Origin: a virus
Length of the DNA stretch: 34,593 bases
IMG/VR virus record: IMGVR_UViG_3300032242_000189
Span: 1-34,593 of that record
Reading direction: 5' to 3' (one strand)
Shown: piece by piece, positions 7,052 to 34,593 of the stretch
How positions within the stretch are numbered: position 1 is the first letter of the stretch
Layout of the letters: every line of letters starts with the position of its first letter
Made by a program: the position numbers and the translations under genes
The notes under the pieces: model-generated
What the model was told of the DNA's origin: nothing
Databases searched by the model: none
Seen by the model: only the letters and a program-made list of their open reading frames with translations

Positions 7052-8475
7052 TAGAGAATCCCCAATTGTCGCGCCCGTTGAATTTTCGCACTAATTTCTG
7101 CGCGTTGTTCAGCAGACATAGAAGATTTTAATTTTTTGACATCTTCTGCTGTCATTTCTTGATACAAACGCGAATCCATAAATGGAATAAATTCTTGCAT
7201 CTTTTGCTGATATGCCATTGGATTGTCCCGAGCAGAAGCCAAATACTTTTGTCTTGCAAGGTTCATCTTTTCAACACCAATCATCATGTCTGCAATGTTT
7301 TTAATTGCAGGCACATTCATTTTGTTGTTTGGATTAGCCGCTTCAGCCAATTGGCGAGCCGCATCCGTATTGCCGCCAGCAATCGCAAGCAATTTGGTAT
7401 TTTTAATCAACTCTTGAGTGGCGGTGTTTTCAGCTTCATAAGCAGAAATGCCAAGCGCGTTAGCAATACCAGACGCTAATGCTTTTCTTTCGCCGCCTAC
7501 AGCCGTAAAACTGTCTGGGGCTAATTTTTTAATGTTTTGGAATGTCGCAATACGTTGGGGCGCCGTCTTAGCCAATTCTGTAGTTTGCTTCCAATCCTCA
7601 TTAGCAATTCCTGTATTGGCTGCAATGGTAGATGCCACTTGAGGAGCTAAAGCGCCCATTGCAGGGCCAGCATTTTGCGGTGTTTGTGAAACTGGTGGTT
7701 TAAGAATTTGAGTGCCAACAGGCAAACCGTAAGGATTGCCTTCACCCAAAGTGATAGGAGTTCCAGTTGGAATTTTAGATTCGATAAATTTTCCTGGTTG
7801 CCCTTGTTGAAATGGTGATGTGGGTTGAAGCAATGTTCCCTCACCAGTAGCAAATGCAGATGGAGCGCGAGCTAACAATGCACCTTGTTCTGAAGGAGCT
7901 TGTGTTTGGAATATGCCGTTCGCAATAGTTTGAATTGCCTCTTTAGGGTTTGTCTTAACTAATTGCAAAAGTTGATCGTGCGAAGCGTTTTCATGTTTTG
8001 GGATATTAAATCCTTTAGTCAAAACGTGTTGTGCCGCATCCAATTTTTCAATCATTTTTGCCGGATTAGGATTTTCAGGATTAAAAGCCGGATCAGCCAA
8101 CAGACCGCCATAAACGTTGCGTGAAAGATCAACGTAATATTTGTTTAAATCGACACCAGCTTTTTCAGCAGCAATTTCATTTGTTTTTGATGTTGCCTCG
8201 GCAGACTTTGCAGCGGCTTCGCTAGAACGAATTTCAAATGGCAATTTAGCCTCAGCGCCAGTGGTCAATGCTTGTTGTTGTCGCAATTGCAAAGGCTGAA
8301 CTTGTTTTTCTTGTTCGGCAAGTTGTTGTAACCTTTGGAGGTTTAACGGGTTAACTTGTTGTGCTTGTTGATATTCTTGAACGCCTCGCGCCATTCCCAA
8401 CATATCAGCAAGGCTTGTTTGTGGGACTGGCTTGATACCAGCAGCCGCAGCAGGGGCAAATGTTAAGTCAGCCAT
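7051..8475 (-). CDS. Internal virion/ejection protein candidate
   Basis: The 474-residue protein is rich in Ala, Gln and Asn. It has a long Gln-rich helical part near the N-terminus (about residues 32-75: VQEYQQAQQ, RLQQLAEQEKQ) and a helical C-terminus. I do not recognise a named family. Its position between a DNA-transfer protein (8484) and the M15 ejection protein (4796) suggests it is one of the usual three podovirus ejection proteins, which form a channel across the host envelope. AAGGACAAAT precedes the ATG. Its stop overlaps the next start (TAATG). Confidence 0.75.
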   Translation of the reverse strand: MADLTFAPAAAAGIKPVPQTSLADMLGMARGVQEYQQAQQVNPLNLQRLQQLAEQEKQVQPLQLRQQQALTTGAEAKLPFEIRSSEAAAKSAEATSKTNEIAAEKAGVDLNKYYVDLSRNVYGGLLADPAFNPENPNPAKMIEKLDAAQHVLTKGFNIPKHENASHDQLLQLVKTNPKEAIQTIANGIFQTQAPSEQGALLARAPSAFATGEGTLLQPTSPFQQGQPGKFIESKIPTGTPITLGEGNPYGLPVGTQILKPPVSQTPQNAGPAMGALAPQVASTIAANTGIANEDWKQTTELAKTAPQRIATFQNIKKLAPDSFTAVGGERKALASGIANALGISAYEAENTATQELIKNTKLLAIAGGNTDAARQLAEAANPNNKMNVPAIKNIADMMIGVEKMNLARQKYLASARDNPMAYQQKMQEFIPFMDSRLYQEMTAEDVKKLKSSMSAEQRAEISAKIQRARQLGIL

Positions 8476-8483
8476 ATTTGTCC

Positions 8484-9188
8484 TTAAAACTGCACTTGCG
8501 AAGGATCATAGAAGCTAGCATTAGTTCCCACTGTGCCAATACTTCCACCGCTTTGTGGCCTTAACAAGTTATACATATAACCAGCATTGCCAAGGTTACT
8601 CAAAGCACCACTGTATGCGTTAGCACCAGCCACTTGACCAGCACCCTGATATCCCGCAGCCGCAACATTAGATGCGCCAATGTTGGAAGCCGTGTTCATA
8701 CCCGCTTGGTTGACTTGCGTTTGTCCGGTTTGACCGATACCCGCAATGCCTGCCAAGGTGTTGTAGATGCCTTGACGTTGGCTAATATACTGAGGCAGTC
8801 CAACATTTGTGGCGTAGTCTTCAGCAAACTTTTGAGCGCCACGGGTAATGTTGCTTCCACCACCGCCCACGTTCATTTGTTGCTTATTAGCACCCACGCC
8901 TTGTTCCAAGCCAAAGCTAAAACCTGGCATTGCCTTCAAATCTTCAGCCGTAACTTGATGGGTAAAGTAAGGCATTTGATTGCCAATTTCATTTAAAGCA
9001 GAGTAACCAGCTTGCCGATATGGTGCTTGTTGCTCATTGATTAAATTAAATTGTTTTTGCTGAAGGTCAGCCGCATATCGAGCAGCATCTGATTGTGTAT
9101 TCGCCGCTTTAGATGCGGCATTAGCTTGCATGTTAGCGCCCAACAACCCCGCTACGGCTGATCCGGCTAGTGCCCATCCTATTGGCAT
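8484..9188 (-). CDS. DNA transfer/ejection protein, N-terminal membrane-active type
   Basis: The 234-residue protein opens with a hydrophobic Ala/Gly helix (WALAGSAVAGLLGANMQANA), then a helical Ala/Gln-rich stretch ending in QQAPYRQAGYSALNEIGNQM (about 54-73). This layout is common to the P22 gp7-like and other podovirus DNA-transfer proteins. The C-terminal half is Gly/Ala/Gln-rich and low in charge. It would leave the virion early and help build the DNA conduit through the envelope. A ribosome site AAAGGAAATGAT precedes the ATG. Confidence 0.8.
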   Translation of the reverse strand: MPIGWALAGSAVAGLLGANMQANAASKAANTQSDAARYAADLQQKQFNLINEQQAPYRQAGYSALNEIGNQMPYFTHQVTAEDLKAMPGFSFGLEQGVGANKQQMNVGGGGSNITRGAQKFAEDYATNVGLPQYISQRQGIYNTLAGIAGIGQTGQTQVNQAGMNTASNIGASNVAAAGYQGAGQVAGANAYSGALSNLGNAGYMYNLLRPQSGGSIGTVGTNASFYDPSQVQF

Positions 9189-10916: not shown

Positions 10917-12505
10917 CAATTTTCTCCAACTGAGCTTTTCAAGTTAGCCGACACAATCACAGCTTTTACTGGAGAGCTAATTGCCACCTCAAAGATACGA
11001 TCCCGAGCCATGCCCAAACGCCTCCAGATCGCACGATTTTTGTATTTGCCTTGCTGTCCAATGCTTACCCAATGTTCGTTTGACCAAGTAGAGCCGCCAT
11101 CATTTGACCAGCGAAGCATAGCCTCGGGATTGGTGATTGCATCTGATGGAGTGACGTACAAGGTATTGATTGGGCCAATGTAGACAATAGAATCCGCACC
11201 GATTTTTAAAGTGCCGTTAGAGGGTATGTAGTAAGGATCGGAAATGACTTCACCACTTTTGACGGAGAAGCCGCCTATACCCACGCCTGGCTGAAACTGG
11301 ATTTGCAGTTCATCAAAGTACTCACGTTGTAAATCTAGAACAAGGTGAGGCGCTCTGCGAAGCCTGCGGATTGTGTTCCCATCTTCGGTGTACACATCCC
11401 GTTCAACACTGTAAATCTTGCCGTTTGCATAATCCCCAACAATGTTCATGTTGTTGAAGAAAGCACCACAGTTAGAACGATGGCGATGGTATTCACCATT
11501 TGAGTATGAAAGCCATTTGTGCCATTGTTGAGTTGCCAAGTCATAAACCCATGTCAAGTCAATGCTTGGAAATGTGACTACATAGAACTCATGACCCTCT
11601 ACCCGATAGGTATAGGCGACAGCATCAGAAATAACTTTTCCAGCCAAAGTGTTTTCAACTGCATGAGTAGAAATCTTTTGGTAGGTATATCCAGCCATTA
11701 CGCCAATAGTTGCCGTTCCCCTAGTGTCCTTAGAGACAAATGCAAAACTCTCGCCAAATCGAGCAATAGACCCCTTGGCGGCACATCCGTGTTGCATGGT
11801 CGTGCCGGAGATACGTTGGAAAGGAAAACTAATAATCCCAGTGATTTGGTTGCCTACATCAACCCAAACCTCTGTCGTGACTTCACCCAACAAATAAACT
11901 TGTCGGTGATCCACAATAAGAGCGACCAAGTTATCTGGCGCACCGTCTTTAGTTCCGTAATAACCCGTAGTGCTGACAGCTAATCCAAGGTCAGTGGCTG
12001 CCCAATTTTGGGTATCAGGCTGGTTGTAAATGATGTAGTTATCTACCACATCACAAGAACTTGCTCCTGTCCAAGGCCCATCAGAAGCAGGCAAAGTTGC
12101 AAATGTATTTGAGCTTGCAACCCATGTGTATCGGGCTATACCATCAACAATGTACGCAGTTAATCCGTTGTCAGTTGTTTGGTTGTCGGTAATCTCAACA
12201 TAACCTGTTGATGTGCTGAGTGTTCCAATTTGAGTCGCTGTAAATGAGTTGTCAATTTTGTAGACAAACCGATTTGAAACAGCAATTAAGTATTGACCAC
12301 CAGACATGGTGTGCAAAGCGCGAACTTGACCAGCATACAGTTGAGCTTTGGTAACCAAGCCGCCTGTCGGATAAAGCGCAACAATTCCCCTGTCGCCTTG
12401 ACCTTTTGTGGGATCAATCTCAGGAAAAAAGTTAATGCACTCTTGCGCGTCTTGATAAATCGAGGGCGCTGTGTAACTTGCTCCAACAAAACCGAAATCT
12501 GGCAT
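10916..12505 (-). CDS. P22 gp10-like tail accessory / packaged DNA stabilisation protein
   Basis: The 529-residue protein fits the phage stabilisation family of P22 gp10, which closes the portal channel after packaging. Family-like features are the N-terminal SIYQDAQECINFFPE, the internal beta-propeller-type repeats (around 150-400) and the C-terminal segment EAMLRWSNDGGSTWSNEHWV followed by KNRAIWRRLGMARDRIFEV. P22 gp10 is about 470 residues, so this version is slightly longer. It follows the gp4-like gene, the same order as in P22-type tails. Confidence 0.88.
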   Translation of the reverse strand: MPDFGFVGASYTAPSIYQDAQECINFFPEIDPTKGQGDRGIVALYPTGGLVTKAQLYAGQVRALHTMSGGQYLIAVSNRFVYKIDNSFTATQIGTLSTSTGYVEITDNQTTDNGLTAYIVDGIARYTWVASSNTFATLPASDGPWTGASSCDVVDNYIIYNQPDTQNWAATDLGLAVSTTGYYGTKDGAPDNLVALIVDHRQVYLLGEVTTEVWVDVGNQITGIISFPFQRISGTTMQHGCAAKGSIARFGESFAFVSKDTRGTATIGVMAGYTYQKISTHAVENTLAGKVISDAVAYTYRVEGHEFYVVTFPSIDLTWVYDLATQQWHKWLSYSNGEYHRHRSNCGAFFNNMNIVGDYANGKIYSVERDVYTEDGNTIRRLRRAPHLVLDLQREYFDELQIQFQPGVGIGGFSVKSGEVISDPYYIPSNGTLKIGADSIVYIGPINTLYVTPSDAITNPEAMLRWSNDGGSTWSNEHWVSIGQQGKYKNRAIWRRLGMARDRIFEVAISSPVKAVIVSANLKSSVGEN

Positions 12506-29408: not shown

Positions 29409-29633
29409 TTAAAAAGAAATATCTTCGTCTTTTGGTTCTTTAGGACGAGGATCATTGACATAAGCCCACCCCGACCATGAACCTTCCATCACTGGAATTA
29501 CGTCAATTTTAAGCATTTCTCCATTCTTTGTGTCAATGATAGACCCGATTCGTGTATATCGGTTCTTTTCTTTGCCTGTAGCGTCAGTGTATTTGCCTGT
29601 GATAACGCTAAGTTCTTTAAGTACTGTGGCCAT
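29409..29633 (-). CDS. Small protein with SSB-like acidic tail
   Basis: The 74-residue protein is beta-rich in its first 50 residues (VLKELSVITGKYTDATGKEK, then RYTRIGSIIDTKNGEMLKID). It ends PKDEDISF, closely resembling the acidic tip DDDIPF of bacterial single-stranded DNA-binding protein. In SSB that tip recruits recombination and replication proteins. The gene lies beside an exonuclease and an Erf annealing gene, overlapping the exonuclease by 17 bases. A small OB-fold SSB-like function is inferred from the tail and the neighbours; no OB-fold residue pattern is certain. Confidence 0.6.
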   Translation of the reverse strand: MATVLKELSVITGKYTDATGKEKNRYTRIGSIIDTKNGEMLKIDVIPVMEGSWSGWAYVNDPRPKEPKDEDISF

Positions 29634-30240
29634 TTTTTCTTTCGTTTAGGTTCTTTATTTTTGTTTCTAGTTCATCTAAAAACTCTTGGATTTCGAATTC
29701 CAACATCTTTACATACATTGAATCAAATTCAACCCGTTTAATGAATAACTGTAGTCCATCAGGCATTCTAGGGTCAAAACTTACAAAGTCGCACCAATCC
29801 CTTTCAGTACACGCCATTTGCCACTGCATTTGCGTAATGTACTTGGTTGGCACTTTCCCCAATAAGACAGTCTCAATATGCGTTGCAGTGTTAGGACATT
29901 TGATCTCAATCAGACCGTTGTAGTCAACAAGCCCATCAGGAGACGCACCAGCCTCTGAAATGCGCGGGTGAATGACAAAGCCTGTCTCAGCCACCAAAAC
30001 GTCTTTAATCGCTTCGTATGCGGCCCTGGCTAAAGGTTCTTGATCTGTACCCCACTGCATTGCAGCATTCGTAAATCCTTCGGCTTGCACTCCTGTCATG
30101 CGTTCGCAAACAAGTTGGGCCATGTAGTTGTCACGCGATGCTGAATAACCCGTTTTGGTTTTGGCGATAACGTCAGCTACCTTAGAGGCGGTTACCTTGC
30201 CCAATCGGGCGGCAAACCATTCTGGTGATCTTTGTTCCAT
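29617..30240 (-). CDS. YqaJ-type recombination exonuclease
   Basis: The 207-residue protein fits the YqaJ/lambda exonuclease PD-(D/E)XK family. The N-terminus is EQRSPEWFAARLGKVTASKV. GTDQEPLARAAYE (65-77) carries a family acidic residue, and SPDGL (Asp102) with IEIKCP (Glu112, Lys114) forms the catalytic centre. It would resect one strand of double-stranded ends in the 5'-to-3' direction, making single strands for the Erf protein encoded next to it. The ATG at 30238-30240 overlaps the erf stop as TAATG, so an in-frame start 17 codons upstream is rejected. Confidence 0.9.
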   Translation of the reverse strand: MEQRSPEWFAARLGKVTASKVADVIAKTKTGYSASRDNYMAQLVCERMTGVQAEGFTNAAMQWGTDQEPLARAAYEAIKDVLVAETGFVIHPRISEAGASPDGLVDYNGLIEIKCPNTATHIETVLLGKVPTKYITQMQWQMACTERDWCDFVSFDPRMPDGLQLFIKRVEFDSMYVKMLEFEIQEFLDELETKIKNLNERKNGHST

Positions 30241-30800
30241 TACAGTTTTCCTTTCATTTTGTCTTTGATGGCAATAACTCGCTTCTGCCAAGTCGGTTCA
30301 CCATTAGCGTAAGCGTAGGCGGCGATATAGGCTTTCTTTAAATCTTCTTCTGTCATTGTTGCTTCTATGGCGGCTAACAAGTCAGCCATTTTTGCTTCAT
30401 CAACTTCAGACTTTTTGATCTCAGTTTTGCGGCTGGCAGCGTTGCCATCATCATCTTCAGGTGCAATACCGCAAGCAGCCATCAATGAATAACGGCGAGC
30501 ATAGGTTAAAGCAGATCCGTAACCTTGTGGGTCGTGCTTGACAGCGGGAACATGAAGTTTGCCGCAATTCAGCATTTCGCCAGATTCGTGGATAAACACT
30601 GTTTCCACCACTACGCCAGTGTCAGACTCTGAGCATTGCTGGATCATTGCTATGCCATTGCGGTTTAAACCGTCCATAACGGCTTCTACGCAAGCGGACA
30701 GGTCAGCGTAGCGTGAACGGAAATGCGGGTTTGTAGCGGTCTTTAAAGCAGGCCCAAAGGCCATTTGTGCTTTGACAAGTGCAGAAGCTAAATTTTTCAT
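30240..30800 (-). CDS. erf: ERF-family single-strand annealing recombinase
   Basis: The 186-residue protein matches the ERF family. Its conserved core is NPHFRSRYADLSACVEAVMD (residues 23-42), then NRNGIAMIQQ and GSALTYARRYSLMAACGIAP (about 95-114), followed by EDDDGNAAS. It anneals complementary single strands and works with the exonuclease downstream. It also helps circularise or repair replicating phage DNA, as Erf does in P22. It is coupled to the exonuclease by TAATG and to the small gene upstream by ATGA. Confidence 0.92.
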   Translation of the reverse strand: MKNLASALVKAQMAFGPALKTATNPHFRSRYADLSACVEAVMDGLNRNGIAMIQQCSESDTGVVVETVFIHESGEMLNCGKLHVPAVKHDPQGYGSALTYARRYSLMAACGIAPEDDDGNAASRKTEIKKSEVDEAKMADLLAAIEATMTEEDLKKAYIAAYAYANGEPTWQKRVIAIKDKMKGKL

Positions 30801-30958
30801 GATTCGTCTTTCTTTGTGATCTTAATTGCTAGGATGTGTTTGTCGCCAAGATTGCGGACTGAGCGAACCCATGCGCGGATGTTGTGGCGTTGGGTTGTTA
30901 CTGGTGTCATGTCGTTGCACCAAAGTTCACGGGCGCGTTTAAGGATAATTGTGTTCAT
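30797..30958 (-). CDS. 53-residue basic protein
   Basis: A short gene runs from ATG 30956-30958 to TGA 30797-30799. The product (MNTIILKRARELWCNDMTPV at the start) is basic with several Arg and Asn residues and an RHNIRAWVRSVRN stretch, suggesting nucleic-acid binding. Its stop overlaps the erf ATG (ATGA) and its start overlaps the upstream small gene stop (TAATG), so it sits inside the recombination operon. No family is recognised. Confidence 0.65.
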   Translation of the reverse strand: MNTIILKRARELWCNDMTPVTTQRHNIRAWVRSVRNLGDKHILAIKITKKDES

Positions 30959-31038
30959 TAGCCCCGCCATGCCAAAAGAATGGCAAACATTACGCCAATG
31001 GCGATAGCGGCTAAACAGTCAAGGATTTGTTCTTTCAT
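30958..31038 (-). CDS. 26-residue hydrophobic peptide
   Basis: A very short gene starts at ATG 31036-31038 with AGAAAGACAAATT upstream and ends at TAA 30958-30960. The product begins MKEQILDCLAAIAIGVMFA and is one probable transmembrane helix with a short basic end. It overlaps the 30797 gene as TAATG. The ribosome site and coupling support it, but so short a frame could be accidental. Function unknown. Confidence 0.45.
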   Translation of the reverse strand: MKEQILDCLAAIAIGVMFAILLAWRG

Positions 31039-31052
31039 AATTTGTCTTTCTA

Positions 31053-31066
31053 GGGGCCGAAGCCCC
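31053..31066 (-). other. GC-rich hairpin with TTCG loop
   Basis: On the minus strand GGGGC-TTCG-GCCCC forms a very stable 5-bp stem capped by a UUCG-type loop. It lies between the stop of the gene at 31074 and the start at 31038. No T run follows, so it is probably an mRNA stabiliser or partial terminator rather than a full one. Confidence 0.6.
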
Positions 31067-31073
31067 GTTTGGT

Positions 31074-31277
31074 TTATTGTGTGCAGCTAGTGCAATTGCA
31101 AGGAATGATGTCGGTCTTGGCGGCTTGGCGCAATTCCATCATGGTGTCATAGCCCCGTGTATGAACCAAGTCATCATCAAAGCGGAAGCCATTTGGCAAG
31201 TTGAGGATGTAGCTCATTTCATCTTCGCTGTGACCGTCTACATCTACGTCACGCGCAACATTCAATTTGTATTTCAT
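31074..31277 (-). CDS. Small early leftward protein, unknown
   Basis: The 67-residue protein (MKYKLNVARDVDVDGHSEDE at the start) is acidic in its first half and ends IPCNCTSCTQ, a CxCxxC cluster that may bind metal. It is the first gene of the leftward arm, 44 bases downstream of the promoter's predicted start, so it should be made early. AAGAAAGTAAGTT precedes the ATG. No family is recognised. Confidence 0.65.
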   Translation of the reverse strand: MKYKLNVARDVDVDGHSEDEMSYILNLPNGFRFDDDLVHTRGYDTMMELRQAAKTDIIPCNCTSCTQ

Positions 31278-31326
31278 AACTTACTTTCTTAAAAGACCCC
31301 TGCGGAATTGCTTGGGGCATGAATGA

Positions 31327-31354
31327 ATTATAAGGCAACTTATACATCATGCAA
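31327..31354 (-). promoter_or_regulatory. Leftward early promoter
   Basis: On the minus strand TTGCAT (31354-31349) and TATAAT (31332-31327) lie 16 bases apart, a strong sigma-70 type promoter directed toward the recombination operon. Transcription would begin near 31320. The 14-bp palindrome 31330-31343 overlaps the -10 box, so binding there would block it. The 5' leader also has a weak CCCC/GGGG hairpin (31297-31317) followed by TCTTTT, which could attenuate early transcripts. Confidence 0.75.
31330..31343. promoter_or_regulatory. Candidate operator O1 (ATAAG-N4-CTTAT)
   Basis: Perfect 14-bp inverted repeat ATAAGGCAACTTAT. Read on the minus strand it is ATAAGTTGCCTTAT followed by AAT, which completes the -10 box TATAAT. 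The same arrangement recurs at O2 (31408) and O3 (33950), pointing to one DNA-binding protein, most simply the Cro-like product of 31431. Confidence 0.65.
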
Positions 31355-31392
31355 GTCTTTTTTTAAATTATTTTGTCAGGACAAACCCTAAG

Positions 31393-31424
31393 TTGCATGA
31401 ATACAACATAAGTCAGGTTATACT
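31393..31424 (+). promoter_or_regulatory. Rightward promoter for the Cro-like gene
   Basis: TTGCAT (31393-31398) and TATACT (31419-31424) face right. The gap is 20 bases, longer than ideal, so this promoter is likely weaker than the leftward one or needs help. TATACT ends only six bases before the ATG at 31431, so transcription would start at or next to the start codon and the mRNA would be nearly leaderless. Confidence 0.55.
31408..31421. promoter_or_regulatory. Candidate operator O2 (ATAAG-N4-GTTAT)
   Basis: ATAAGTCAGGTTAT is a near-palindrome with eight of its ten arm bases symmetric. It overlaps the -10 box of the rightward promoter exactly as O1 overlaps the leftward one. A nearby CTAAGTTGCATGAA (31389-31402) shares TAAGTTGC with O1 and may be a weaker third contact in the same region. 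Confidence 0.55.
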
Positions 31425-31430
31425 TGTCTC

Positions 31431-31640
31431 ATGGAAAAATCTACCGCCATCAGGCTTGCAGGGTCACAAACCAAGTTAGCCGCCATTCTTGGCATCAGCC
31501 AGGCAGCAATTGCACAATGGGGCAATGACGTTCCCGTTATGCGTATCTATCAACTCAAAACACTCAAACCCAAATGGTTCAAACTAGAGAAAACATCTTT
31601 GCCGCCCTTGCCCACGGCCCCAGAACAACAGCACAATTGA
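31431..31640 (+). CDS. Cro-like helix-turn-helix repressor
   Basis: The 69-residue protein has the size and layout of lambdoid Cro. A helix-turn-helix lies at about residues 12-31 (SQTKLAAILGISQAAIAQWG), followed by VPVMRIYQLKTLKP typical of Cro-like proteins. It would bind as a dimer to short palindromes and repress early promoters; ATAAG-N4-(C/G)TTAT sites flank it. There is no CI-type gene nearby, so it may be the main early regulator. No Shine-Dalgarno sequence lies before the ATG, consistent with a leaderless message. Its last 67 bases overlap the next gene. Confidence 0.82.
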   Translation: MEKSTAIRLAGSQTKLAAILGISQAAIAQWGNDVPVMRIYQLKTLKPKWFKLEKTSLPPLPTAPEQQHN

Positions 31641-31915
31641 TGGAAGAATTAGGCGTATCAAAAAGTGCCGCCAACTACTACAGGCGACAGCTAGAAAAAG
31701 ATGGATTGATAGAGGAAAAAGGCACTAAAGCACTGGATCGTGGATTTGGCTGCGAAACCATCTGGGGTCTGGTTGTGGCTAAAAAGGCGGTCAATGCTTT
31801 TGATTGGCGAAATTGGGAAACTCAATGCCACCAGAGCGCCAGAGAAATTGCGTTCAACAACAGAAATCATGTTCCAAGAACAGATGGACGGATTATTGTG
31901 TACAGCAAAGCGTGA
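31574..31915 (+). CDS. Winged-helix protein (MarR/ArsR-like), putative regulator
   Basis: The 113-residue protein opens with a winged-helix motif: RENIFAALAHGPRTTAQLME (about 5-24), ELGVSKSAANYYRRQLEKDG (about 25-44, recognition helix), then LIEEKGTKALDRGF for the wing. Such proteins bind DNA and regulate phage or host genes. It starts inside the Cro-like gene in another frame (67-base overlap) with no Shine-Dalgarno sequence, so it is probably translated by coupling. Its C-terminal half has no recognised family. Confidence 0.75.
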   Translation: MVQTRENIFAALAHGPRTTAQLMEELGVSKSAANYYRRQLEKDGLIEEKGTKALDRGFGCETIWGLVVAKKAVNAFDWRNWETQCHQSAREIAFNNRNHVPRTDGRIIVYSKA

Positions 31916-31938
31916 TATGATATTTTGAAACACGGCTA

Positions 31939-32013
31939 GGTACGAAGTCATGAGCGTACCGAAAAGCGAACTCCCCGCCTGCCGAGGTTTCTTTCAGGGA
32001 GATTTGCGGAGTT
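31939..32013 (+). promoter_or_regulatory. Structured leader of the replication gene, two alternative folds
   Basis: The leader first forms a hairpin, GGTACG (31939-31944) with CGTACC (31955-31960). Then CTCC at 31971-31974 can pair in two ways. AACTCC (31969-31974) pairs with GGAGTT (32008-32013), which contains the GGAG ribosome site of the ATG at 32020 and hides it. Alternatively CTCCC (31971-31975) pairs with GGGAG (31997-32001), leaving the ribosome site free. Mutually exclusive helices of this kind mark translational switches. No ligand-binding motif known to me is present. Confidence 0.6.
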
Positions 32014-32019
32014 GCTTTA

Positions 32020-32772
32020 ATGCACTATTACCAGTTCAACATTGGTGACTATGTTAGTCACACACGGCATTTGTCGCCTATTGAAGACATTGCCTATCGC
32101 CGACTTCTTGATGCTTACTATCTTAGCGAACGCCCGTTGAACTCTGGTTTAACGTCCGTTGCTCGTCAGATAGGAATGCGAGAGCATGAAGACGAAGTGG
32201 GTTTGGTTCTAAACGAATTTTTTGTTTTGGGCGAAGATGGTTGGACAAGCAATCGTGCAGACAAAGAAATTGCACATTTTCATTCCAAAATAGAGCAGGC
32301 TTCACGCGCTGGCAAGGCATCCGCTGAACGCAGGTCTAACGCCCGTTCAACGGACGTTCAACCAACCAATAACCAAGAACCAATAACCAATAACCAAGAA
32401 CCAATTATTAAAGAAGGTAAACCTTCTATGTCGGGAAGTACCTTCCCTCCTTGCCCTTACAAGGAACTTTTAAACCTTTGGGGAAAGCATTTGCCCCATT
32501 TGACTCAACCAAGGTCATGGGAGGGTACAAGGCAGGCTAACATGAGACAGCGTTGGCATCAAGCAGGCAGGCCATCAGCGTATTCGCCTGAGGGCTACAC
32601 AACAACCGAAGCGGGAATCAAATGGTGGGATTCGTTTTTTAACTACATTGCAAACGACACATCATTGGCTAACGGTTTTGAAACCAAAGGCCGGACATGG
32701 CGACCAGATCTTGAATGGATAGTAAACGCAACAAATTTTCAAAAAATCATTGATGGGAAATATTCAAAATGA
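32020..32772 (+). CDS. DUF1376 (YdaU-like) phage replication protein
   Basis: The 250-residue protein starts HYYQFNIGDYVSHTRHLSPI and EDIAYRRLLDAYYLSERPLN, the characteristic opening of the DUF1376 family, found at the position of the replication initiator O in lambdoid phages. A linker made of TNNQEPI repeats (about residues 116-129) separates it from a C-terminal part (FPPCPYKELLNLWGKHLPHL). In lambda O the comparable linker region holds the origin, and tandem 7-bp repeats lie here too (32366-32407). The start is set by GGAG eight bases upstream. No helicase, primase or polymerase gene is present, so the protein probably recruits host replication machinery. Confidence 0.85.
   Translation: MHYYQFNIGDYVSHTRHLSPIEDIAYRRLLDAYYLSERPLNSGLTSVARQIGMREHEDEVGLVLNEFFVLGEDGWTSNRADKEIAHFHSKIEQASRAGKASAERRSNARSTDVQPTNNQEPITNNQEPIIKEGKPSMSGSTFPPCPYKELLNLWGKHLPHLTQPRSWEGTRQANMRQRWHQAGRPSAYSPEGYTTTEAGIKWWDSFFNYIANDTSLANGFETKGRTWRPDLEWIVNATNFQKIIDGKYSK
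32366..32407 (+). repeat. Six tandem 7-bp repeats (iteron-like), candidate origin
   Basis: The repeats read CCAATAA, CCAAGAA, CCAATAA, CCAATAA, CCAAGAA and CCAATTA without gaps. Three heptamers equal seven codons, so the protein shows a TNNQEPI repeat. A 19-base stretch, CCAATAACCAAGAACCAAT, occurs twice 21 bases apart. The following sequence is AT-rich. Position inside the replication gene matches lambdoid origins, where initiator-binding iterons lie within O. It could also be only a repeated linker peptide. Confidence 0.6.
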
Positions 32773-32993
32773 CATTTGCTAAACCTAATCAAAAACCTGA
32801 AGAAAAAGAAGTTTATTCGTCTTATTGCTCAGTGCCTGGTTGTCCAAACTTGTGGGCCGTACAAATTGACAGACCTATGTGCAGCCATCATCAATGGTCA
32901 AATACTGAAAAGCCAAGAAAACCACCAATCTTAGCAAATTACCCAAGAAAAGTTAAAACTATTACCGCATGGTATGACGAGGTGAAATTTTGA
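32769..32993 (+). CDS. Small zinc-finger-like phage protein
   Basis: The 74-residue protein has a zinc-binding pattern, YCSVPGCPNLWAVQIDRPMC (Cys20, Cys25, Cys38) then SHHQW (His40/41). Small proteins of this type are common in the replication/nin regions of phages. Function unknown, but nucleic-acid binding is plausible. It overlaps the replication gene (ATGA) and the next gene (TTGA). Confidence 0.7.
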   Translation: MTFAKPNQKPEEKEVYSSYCSVPGCPNLWAVQIDRPMCSHHQWSNTEKPRKPPILANYPRKVKTITAWYDEVKF

Positions 32994-33190
32994 CTTATGA
33001 ACAAGCCCAAAGAATCCTTGACCGCACCCAAGAAGGTTGGCAATTTAGCGAATTTGTCATTCTCAGAGCGCTTGAACTTACGGGAGACTATGAGCCAAAT
33101 GGAAGCGGTGGAGTGGAAGAAACGTTACCGCAAGAAAGCAATGGAGGAGGGCAACGGCGAAGCCTACCATTGGTGGCTAACCGTGATTGA
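32990..33190 (+). CDS. Small phage protein of nin-like region, TTG start
   Basis: The 66-residue product (MTYEQAQRILDRTQEGWQFS at the start, then EFVILRALELTGDYEP) matches the general form of small phage proteins found between replication and recombination genes. The start is TTG in a TTGA overlap with the upstream stop. The last third, after GDYEP, is Gly/Gln-rich and less like the first part. It overlaps the 33090 gene by 101 bases in another frame, so part of its 3' end may be read-through of what was once a shorter gene. Confidence 0.55.
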   Translation: MTYEQAQRILDRTQEGWQFSEFVILRALELTGDYEPNGSGGVEETLPQESNGGGQRRSLPLVANRD

Positions 33191-33272
33191 AGACATTGGT
33201 AAGCGCAGAAGCTTGAAAGCCGCACAGAACTTGCGTGATCGCATGAACAATTTAAAGGAAACAAATGATTAG
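33090..33272 (+). CDS. 60-residue basic phage protein
   Basis: The product (MSQMEAVEWKKRYRKKAMEE at the start) is basic and helical and contains GEAYHWWLTVIEDIGKRRSL and a C-terminal AQNLRDRMNNLK. Small proteins with this EWKxRYRKKAM ... WWLTVIxDI layout recur in nin-type regions. GGGAG lies three bases before the ATG at 33090, which I prefer over an in-frame ATG 31 codons upstream that lacks family-like sequence. It overlaps the next gene by 8 bases. Function unknown. Confidence 0.6.
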   Translation: MSQMEAVEWKKRYRKKAMEEGNGEAYHWWLTVIEDIGKRRSLKAAQNLRDRMNNLKETND

Positions 33273-33534
33273 ACGCGCCGCCCGAGTGGATGCTAACCAA
33301 GCCCAGGTTGTTTCAGCGCTTAGAGCCGCTGGCGCTTACGTTTGGATTATTGGCCTGCCAGTTGACCTTTTGGTCGGCTACAAGAACCACAGTTGGTTAA
33401 TGGAAGTTAAAGATGGGCCTAGAAAGCGTTTAACGGCCCTACAAGAGGACTTTTTTAAGAATTGGTGCGGAGGTACGTTGTGCCGTGTTGACGGCCCTGA
33501 AGCGGCTTTAAGAATGATTGGGGTAGTTGAATGA
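33265..33534 (+). CDS. PD-(D/E)XK nuclease, Holliday-junction-resolvase-like
   Basis: The 89-residue protein has the short PD-(D/E)XK core: VDLLVGYKNHSWLMEVKDG (about residues 33-51), with Asp34, Glu47 and Lys49 as the expected active site. The N-terminal RRAARVDANQAQVVSALRAA is typical of small resolvase- and VRR-NUC-like phage enzymes. It probably resolves or trims branched DNA during recombination and packaging. It is coupled to NinB by a TGATGA-type junction (4-base overlap, 33531-33534). Confidence 0.78.
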   Translation: MIRRAARVDANQAQVVSALRAAGAYVWIIGLPVDLLVGYKNHSWLMEVKDGPRKRLTALQEDFFKNWCGGTLCRVDGPEAALRMIGVVE

Positions 33535-33953
33535 TTTTCCACCTACAAAACCCCGAACAAGCCAGCGCAGTTATGGCAAAGATCTGGCCTAAGGTAAAGG
33601 ACACTTTGAGAGCCGGAAAAGCCTTGCGGATGGAGATTAAAGCGGAATCCCGTAGTGACGAGCAGAACGCAAAGTATCACGCCATGTTGTCAGAGATTGC
33701 TGTCCAAGCGCAACACTTGGGTGCTAAATGGGATGCGGAATCTTGGAAACGCTTTCTTGTCTATGAATTTTGCAAACAGCTAGGCCTGCCGCAGGGTCAG
33801 ATTGTGCCCTCGCTTGATGGCAGTGGCATTGTACAACTTGGCTTGCAAACACGCGATTTCTCTAAAGAGCGAGCAGCAGAGTTCATAGAGTTCCTTGAGG
33901 CCTGGGCAGCAGACAAAGAAATTATTTTTAAAAATGTTGCACAAAACCTATAA
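33531..33953 (+). CDS. ninB: NinB-like recombination mediator (Orf family)
   Basis: The 140-residue protein fits NinB, which in lambda (146 residues) binds single-stranded DNA and helps RecA-type or Red recombination past SSB. Family phrases are EIKAESRSDEQNAKYHAMLS (about 46-65), then GAKWDAESWKRFLVYEFCKQ and SGIVQLGLQTRDFSKERAAE. It overlaps the resolvase-like gene and lies directly before promoter 33937-33966, so it ends the first part of the rightward operon. Confidence 0.88.
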   Translation: MIFHLQNPEQASAVMAKIWPKVKDTLRAGKALRMEIKAESRSDEQNAKYHAMLSEIAVQAQHLGAKWDAESWKRFLVYEFCKQLGLPQGQIVPSLDGSGIVQLGLQTRDFSKERAAEFIEFLEAWAADKEIIFKNVAQNL

Positions 33954-33966
33954 GTCTGCTTATAAT
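33937..33966 (+). promoter_or_regulatory. Internal rightward promoter with operator O3
   Basis: TTGCAC (33937-33942) and TATAAT (33961-33966) are 18 bases apart, a good sigma-70 type promoter pointing into the small genes at 34002 and, after the join, 99-1213. The 14-bp palindrome ATAAGTCTGCTTAT at 33950-33963 overlaps the -10 box exactly as at the two promoters of the control region. Transcription should start near 33973, and the first gene has its own GGAG ribosome site. Confidence 0.72.
33950..33963. promoter_or_regulatory. Candidate operator O3 (ATAAG-N4-CTTAT)
   Basis: Perfect inverted repeat ATAAG-TCTG-CTTAT. It shares ATAAGT and TTAT with the minus-strand reading of O1 and with O2, and like them is followed by A(A/C)T to complete the -10 box. 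Its distance from the control region, about 2.5 kb, makes chance agreement in sequence and placement unlikely. Confidence 0.65.
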
Positions 33967-34001
33967 TCAACCATGCCCATTTGGGTCTTTTTGGAGAAAT
34001 C

Positions 34002-34199
34002 ATGATCTTTAACGCGCAACTTGAACAAAAAATCGTATCAGTGCATTGGCTGTACGAAGAAGATAAAACAGGCATCTACAACTCGTTTGTTGACAAGGTA
34101 ATTTACGAAGGCGTTGACGTAGCGCCAATCTTGCCAGATGAGGTGTTAGATATGCTTGATTCTGAGGGGCATAGTCGTTTGGAGCAATCCAATGACTAA
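34002..34199 (+). CDS. Small acidic phage protein, unknown
   Basis: The 65-residue protein (MIFNAQLEQKIVSVHWLYEE at the start) is acidic with a C-terminal ILPDEVLDMLDSEG helix. GGAGAAATC precedes the ATG at 34002; the longer in-frame TTG start is rejected for this reason. It is the first gene after the internal promoter. Its last bases overlap the next gene by 8. No function is recognised. Confidence 0.65.
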   Translation: MIFNAQLEQKIVSVHWLYEEDKTGIYNSFVDKVIYEGVDVAPILPDEVLDMLDSEGHSRLEQSND

Positions 34200-34362
34200 A
34201 CTTTTTGCTGCCATAGCTTTTTTTGGCTTGGCCTACTTTATCCCGCCAATCAGCCAAATGATTGACTTACATCCCGAATGTTCAGTGGCTACTTTTAGCC
34301 CTGACTTGACGCAAAAACAAAAGGCATTTTGCCGTGGATGGAACAAAAATGGACAAAAATAA
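34192..34362 (+). CDS. Small membrane or secreted protein
   Basis: The 56-residue protein starts MTKLFAAIAFFGLAYFIPPI, a hydrophobic N-terminal helix with a basic residue before it, consistent with a membrane anchor or signal peptide. The rest (HPECSVATFSPDLTQ and KAFCRGWNKN) has two cysteines that could form a disulfide outside the membrane. GGAG lies eight bases before the ATG. The start overlaps the previous stop. Function unknown; an exported accessory protein is possible. Confidence 0.6.
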   Translation: MTKLFAAIAFFGLAYFIPPISQMIDLHPECSVATFSPDLTQKQKAFCRGWNKNGQK

Positions 34363-34414
34363 TTGGCCTGACAACTGGCCTTTCCCACCTTATCCTTTGA
34401 GGAGTAAAGCATGA
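34349..34414 (+). CDS. 21-residue Pro/Trp-rich peptide (tentative)
   Basis: A very short frame starts at ATG 34349, inside the end of the previous gene, and ends at TGA 34412-34414 overlapping the next ATG (ATGA). The product starts MDKNNWPDNWPFPPYP and is unusually rich in Pro and Trp. The coupling at both ends suggests a real gene, but the ribosome site (GGATGG) is weak and the length is too short to judge. Confidence 0.35.
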   Translation: MDKNNWPDNWPFPPYPLRSKA

Positions 34415-34593
34415 CTGGATGGCGTAAACAACAAATTCTTGAAATGGCGGCAATGGCTGGCATCCCATTCTGGGGATCTAGTGAATTGCTAGAAAATTTT
34501 GAAGCCTTTGCCAAGCTGGTGCGTGAAGATGAGCGTGAGGCGCTTACCCCACGTTGTTGGACTCAAGAAATGAATGATGCTTGGAACAAATCA
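34411..34593 (+). CDS. 5' part of small phage protein that spans the genome join
   Basis: Translation starts at ATG 34411 with TTGAGGAGTAAAGC upstream, a strong ribosome site. The frame runs off the end at residue 61. Once the 45-base overlap is removed it continues from base 46 to the TGA at 100-102, giving 79 residues. The N-terminal part (TGWRKQQILEMAAMAGIPFW) has an amphipathic helix, and EAFAKLVREDEREALTPRCW follows. Function unknown. Confidence 0.78.
   Translation, partial: MTGWRKQQILEMAAMAGIPFWGSSELLENFEAFAKLVREDEREALTPRCWTQEMNDAWNKS
34549..34593. repeat. Terminal overlap, right copy (circular contig join)
   Basis: These 45 bases equal bases 1-45. Removing one copy closes the genome into a circle of about 34,548 bases with one intact gene across the join. 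Confidence 0.9.

Follow-up and report, generated by a model that had tools for sequence, protein, structure and literature searches.

What reads a palindrome that recurs at three early promoters, two of them divergent and the third 2.5 kb away, and could one protein govern all three? The question is raised by a 34,593-nt stretch of DNA from a freshwater phage, referred to throughout in its entirety as the window. A preliminary description of this sequence proposed a single DNA-binding protein for the three promoters, with a Cro-like protein as the candidate. Our comparisons support that proposal, as all of the sites switch together with the recognition helix of Cro. Judging from sequence comparison, we consider it very likely that the locus is a Cro-only, negatively autoregulated early regulon covering the left early promoter PL, the cro promoter PR and a distal promoter PD.

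Operators and promoters in the window

31327..31354, minus strand: left early promoter PL (-35 TTGCAT at 31349-31354, 16-bp spacer, -10 TATAAT at 31327-31332)
31330..31343, minus strand: operator 1 (OL), ATAAGTTGCCTTAT, overlapping the PL -10
31393..31424, plus strand: cro promoter PR (TTGCAT at 31393-31398, 20-bp spacer, -10 TATACT at 31419-31424)
31408..31421, plus strand: operator 2 (OR), ATAAGTCAGGTTAT, overlapping the cro -10
33937..33966, plus strand: distal promoter PD (-35 TTGCAC at 33937-33942, 18-bp spacer, -10 TATAAT at 33961-33966)
33950..33963, plus strand: operator 3 (distal, OD), ATAAGTCTGCTTAT, containing the ninB stop codon

The window holds exactly three matches to ATAAGTNNNNTTAT, each overlapping a -10 box, compared with a mean of 0.08 in dinucleotide shuffles, which gave at most two and never three. 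The three 14-mers of the preliminary description were all recovered at the operator positions listed above, and each is indeed followed by the AAT or ACT that completes TATAAT or TATACT. The 5+5 palindrome ATAAG-N4-CTTAT is perfect in sites 1 and 3 and has one mismatch in site 2, ATAAG-N4-GTTAT. There is one matching site per promoter in the window, and no tandem operators were found at the divergent promoters.

The TTGCA(T/C) -35 boxes that had been claimed are present before each site, but the one at PR is separated from its -10 by 20 bp and is not conserved in relatives; because the usual spacer is 16-18 bp, this -35 is doubtful. A second palindrome at the PR -35, GTTGTATGAATACAAC, is perfect in the relative L001 and is not conserved. 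PD is the top-scoring promoter-like site in a promoter scan, and the layout of PL is identical in L001-L008, L015 and L016. The cro ATG lies only 6 nt past the -10 (window 31419-31433), from which we infer that the cro mRNA is probably leaderless in the window; a distance of 5-7 nt in most relatives suggests that this holds family-wide.

The cro gene and its neighbors

29617..31277, minus strand: left early genes (31074-31277, 30797-30970, ERF annealing protein 30240-30800, YqaJ/RecE-like exonuclease 29617-30291)
31431..31640, plus strand: Cro-like repressor, 69 aa, recognition helix SQAAIAQW (Pfam P22_Cro, 9.4e-12)
31574..31915, plus strand: winged-helix (ArsR-like) gene adjoining cro (HTH_5 match)
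33531..33953, plus strand: ninB, recombination mediator (Pfam NinB, 8.5e-24)
34002..34199, plus strand: small gene, 65 aa, downstream of PD (alignment and hmmsearch; a homologue follows the distal promoter in relatives)

The product of the 31431 gene scores 45.0 bits against Pfam P22_Cro (PF14549), above the curated cut-off of 30.2, and the closest PDB match of the Cro profile is P22 Cro (1rzs_A, residues 1-47, the HTH; E 1.3e-6). The gene does not lie between the first two sites, as had been described: its start is to the right of both divergent sites, and it follows immediately to the right of site 2. The rightward genes comprise a DUF1376 replication gene, ninB and the small gene. No Pfam match was found for the left gene at 31074-31277, and no divergent cI was found opposite cro in the window.

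Conservation of the sites with Cro

Conservation of the motif together with the Cro-like gene had been suggested as a check, and it passed strongly. Relatives were fetched by protein similarity, without use of the motif. Eight genomes combine this Cro with a complete ninB (the window, L001, L002, L004, L005, L006, L007 and L008). They are related and so do not represent eight independent events; in all of them the distal site covers the ninB stop codon and precedes a homologous small gene. The homologues of this gene are 35-97% identical to that of the window, and the genes between the divergent and distal sites are mosaic across the same-Cro genomes. Wherever the locus of a window-type Cro is intact, except in L007, the distance from the beginning of the PR site to the Cro start codon is exactly 23 bp, and the PL site lies 90-103 bp ahead of that codon.

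In the window the ninB stop codon TAA (33951-33953) falls inside the distal site, and coding constraint on the NinB C-terminus was tried as the cause of that site. It was rejected because the position and type of the stop codon vary: TAA in the ATAAG operator, TAG in the TCTAG operator of L036-L038, and upstream of the operator in L103.

Two groups with other Cro helices, L039 (SPPAVYKW) and L030/L031 (RREAIYQW), possess the homologous distal promoter, but nothing in it clearly matches the PL/PR sites of the same genome; there the distal site may be lost, weak or different. A megablast search of the right 14.6 kb of the window against isolated phages gave no match, and the cassette described below is not visible in the cultured or complete ERF/terminase relatives MEP301, P19250A, MW202674 and MW202520, which are too diverged.

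Operator class switches with the Cro recognition helix

The most informative comparison is between L103 and its near-twin L008, the same stretch of which is also found in L104. Across ~1 kb surrounding the distal site, L104 and L103 share 95% identity, and their 52 mismatches are most tightly clustered on the distal operator and -10, where 12 fall within 24 bp; the maximum in 20,000 permutations was 9. The recognition helix is AQSAVAQW in L008/L104 and SRGAVWLW in L103, and the Cro C-terminal tail is common to both. All three sites change from the ATAAG-N4-CTTAT type in L008/L104 to TCTA-N5-CTATA in L103. At each of the three promoters the upstream half-site goes from ATAAG to TCTAG or TCTAA, and the positions of the -10 and -35 boxes are unchanged. 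The TCTA-N5-CTATAC sites of L103, at 7555-7569 (minus strand), 7619-7633 (plus strand) and 11006-11020 (plus strand), are the only three in its 15.6-kb record, in which control patterns had no matches.

A second genome with an SRGAVWLW-type Cro, L119, contains three TCTA-class sites and no more in its 33 kb, one each at PL, at PR and after ninB; no such site occurs in the window or in L006. The counterpart of operator 1 is TCTAGATAGCTATA in L103 and TCTAGATGGCTATA in L119, the counterpart of operator 2 is TCTAACAGGCTATA in both, and the distal operator is class-switched in both. L007 has gained an SRGAVWLW Cro along with TCTA/TATAG-class PL and PR sites, and its window-type Cro comes second, with the ATAAG distal site kept. 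The presence of two Cros with two site classes indicates that each class has its cognate Cro. Taken together, these comparisons are strong evidence that one small protein, Cro, would control all three early promoters. The distal sites of L036-L038, TCTAGGTTGCTATAC, are also TCTA-type next to a ninB 96-98% identical to that of the window, and constitute a prediction rather than evidence because these contigs end before cro.

Two loci show more than one Cro sequence in tandem or in part. In L007 (5822-6198), two tandem Cro genes differ in specificity, and the second lacks a separate promoter, its cognate site being the distal one only. In L083 (~8428-8560), the C-terminal part of a window-type Cro is found downstream of an SRGAVWLW Cro, beside a CxxC-containing, HNH-like-looking fragment; this remnant is apparent debris of Cro replacement.

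A repeated promoter cassette with a leader hairpin

31296..31318, minus strand: PL transcript 5' leader hairpin (GCCCC...GGGGT, then CTTTT)
33975..33986, plus strand: PD transcript 5' leader hairpin (GCCC-ATTT-GGGT, then CTTTTT)

The PL and PD transcripts, in the window and in relatives, begin with a hairpin, UGCC...GGUCUUUU, at a near-fixed distance from the -10; the cro transcript has no such leader. Every one of the 71 distinct leaders forms the pair beside the GCC/GGT clamp; with shuffled partners, 46.6 would be expected to do so, and the maximum was 57. Because this shuffling ignores relatedness, the count was repeated on distinct combinations, where the pair is formed in 46 of 46 (mean 27.5, maximum 36). 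Its composition varies (C-G 53, G-C 10, U-A 4, A-U 2 and two wobbles), and the next stem pair is formed in 63 of 71 leaders, against 54.4 expected. An Rfam scan of 30500-34593 returned no family; possible roles of the hairpin are in mRNA stability, attenuation or translation.

A single cassette, with the order -35, operator over the -10, 5' hairpin leader and Shine-Dalgarno, has evidently been copied to give PL and PD. The distal site, which the preliminary description had considered less usual, is thus real and one instance of this repeated unit. In L030 (5365-5892), tandem PL promoter-operator-leader cassettes flank an inserted 130-aa gene. L135 has four cassettes in the leftward operon and one distal cassette upstream of a small-gene homologue, and L138 and L141 each have three leftward and one distal; these genomes belong to a set (L112-L144) fetched with the motif itself and therefore show arrangement, not frequency. 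The same operator accordingly occurs at several separated sites per genome, three in the window and five in L135. In L010 and L011, where Cro has the helix SRPAIYQW, there are several copies of this promoter-hairpin cassette, of the GTAA class.

The divergent intergenic region of the window also contains an inverted repeat, TAGGG-N5-CCCTA (..TTGTAGGGACAAACCCTAA.., 31373-31391). It recurs in L001, L002, L004, L006, L016, L030 (twice, one copy lying beside the second PL cassette), L042, L054 and others, with different Cro types, and is a possible binding site of another factor.

Alternative explanations

Instead of acting as a Cro in the lytic phase, the protein could maintain a dormant (phage-plasmid or pseudolysogenic) state by repression in the manner of CI, as it is the sole repressor seen and its sites lie at all of the early promoters, including its own. 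We consider this improbable. A search for tyrosine integrases (PF00589) found none in the window and six relatives, seven records whose completeness is not certified. No HTH_3 protein besides Cro, and no second, CI-like repressor, was found in these same records, which leaves no second repressor to flip a switch. A Cro profile search of 84,980 bacterial and archaeal genomes found no relative. Together these three results point to virulent phages, within records not certified as complete. Strict autorepression, moreover, sets a level and not a stable off state.

We give very little credence to the idea that the sites share no more than a promoter feature, such as an extended -10, a host sigma preference or a recent cassette duplication, and that no repressor reads it. 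The site does always overlap a -10, and PL and PD share one cassette with the same hairpin leader. However, the upstream half-site in L103 changes with the Cro helix at three promoters while the -10 and -35 stay put, and PR shares the palindrome though, lacking the hairpin leader, it is not a cassette copy.

Still less credible is a reading of the sites by another protein such as the ArsR-like winged-helix product of 31574-31915, which adjoins cro and has a DNA-binding fold, since site class tracks Cro type, L007 pairs two Cros with two site classes, and the gene is excluded as the conserved binder by its absence from L002 and L008, both of which keep all three ATAAG sites. Cro is the only regulator seen to be common to all relatives with the sites; in principle, another regulator that switches together with Cro could use sites over the -10.

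Comparison with known control systems

The protein is a member of the P22-type Cro family; the locus, as read from the sequence, does not have the layout of a lambdoid switch, for neither cI nor tandem operators nor an integrase was found in the window. P22 Cro is a relative in Pfam family and fold and likewise a small repressor with divergent PL/PR operators. The P22 operator core is AAG-N4-CTT, and in P22 the operators are arranged in tandem at both OL and OR and serve the C2 repressor as well, whereas the window has one operator per promoter, no C2/CI that we could find and a third operator at a distance of 2.5 kb. In lambda, too, Cro turns down the two early promoters, one of which is its own, as is proposed here for the window. 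Lambda has its operators in tandem, three per side, a CI that competes with Cro and no known distal Cro promoter, and its Cro belongs to a different dimer fold class. In the L5 stoperator, phiC31 CIR and P1 C1 systems, one maintenance repressor of a temperate phage has many scattered sites. In the window, by contrast, Cro is the only regulator seen, and the sites are part of a cassette with a promoter and a hairpin leader.

The Pseudomonas phage vB_PaeP_YA3 (MK819239, L111) resembles the window in having a P22-type Cro (helix SYAAVQQW), with AAG-N4-CTT sites both ahead of cro and to the left of cI; it differs in encoding CI, as temperate phages do, and in having its sites clustered at the immunity region. 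The Cro proteins of PY54 and phiKO2 are all-helical, Cro-type proteins that bind palindromes overlapping promoters (PMC4488713, PMC4997575). OR3 is the only operator that they bind, and neither protein represses its own synthesis (PMC4997575), an arrangement opposite to that of the window, where the site is present at three promoters including that of cro itself. A literature search on distal Cro operators found no description of the arrangement in the window. The failure to find CI or tandem operators, together with the contrast to PY54 and phiKO2, indicates a variant of Cro/operator control in which a repeatable cassette brings dispersed promoters under the same regulator.

Proposed mechanism and implications

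In the proposed Cro-only regulon, host RNA polymerase would fire PL, PR and PD on entry. The 69-aa P22-Cro-type protein would bind as a dimer to the ATAAG-N4-CTTAT-type palindrome and, because the right half of the palindrome is the first half of each -10, would block RNA polymerase, most likely by competing with it at the -10 boxes of PL, PR and PD. As Cro accumulates it would lower all three promoters together, as one negative-feedback regulon whose controlled units are the leftward recombination operon from PL, cro itself from PR and the rightward unit from PD after ninB. Coordinate feedback would thereby act on recombination genes, replication genes and distal small genes, and a cassette of the PL/PD type could be added in front of other genes. 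No bistable switch is indicated, since no CI partner was found. We infer physical binding, dimerisation, repression and timing; for dimer binding and repression by Cro, it is the co-switching of sites and helix that points to them. On balance, we also think it probable that the broader pattern is one of a portable, repeatable Cro promoter cassette placed before successive early genes, with the specificity of the regulon shifting in concert with the Cro helix and CI-less, Cro-only control supplemented by an RNA-level layer, of which the covarying 5' hairpin would be the additional element.

In these phages, repressors and operators come as matched sets (ATAAG, GTAA and TCTA classes, with several helices) in near-identical backgrounds. 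This natural series makes the rules of Cro-DNA recognition directly testable, as well as the way in which a regulator and its scattered sites co-evolve. The series fits the helix/half-site approach of Hall et al. 2005 (cited in PMC4997575), who reportedly correlated Cro recognition helices with operator half-sites. For phages without a detectable CI, the arrangement would extend Cro control from the classical divergent operator pair to an early regulon on the scale of the genome.
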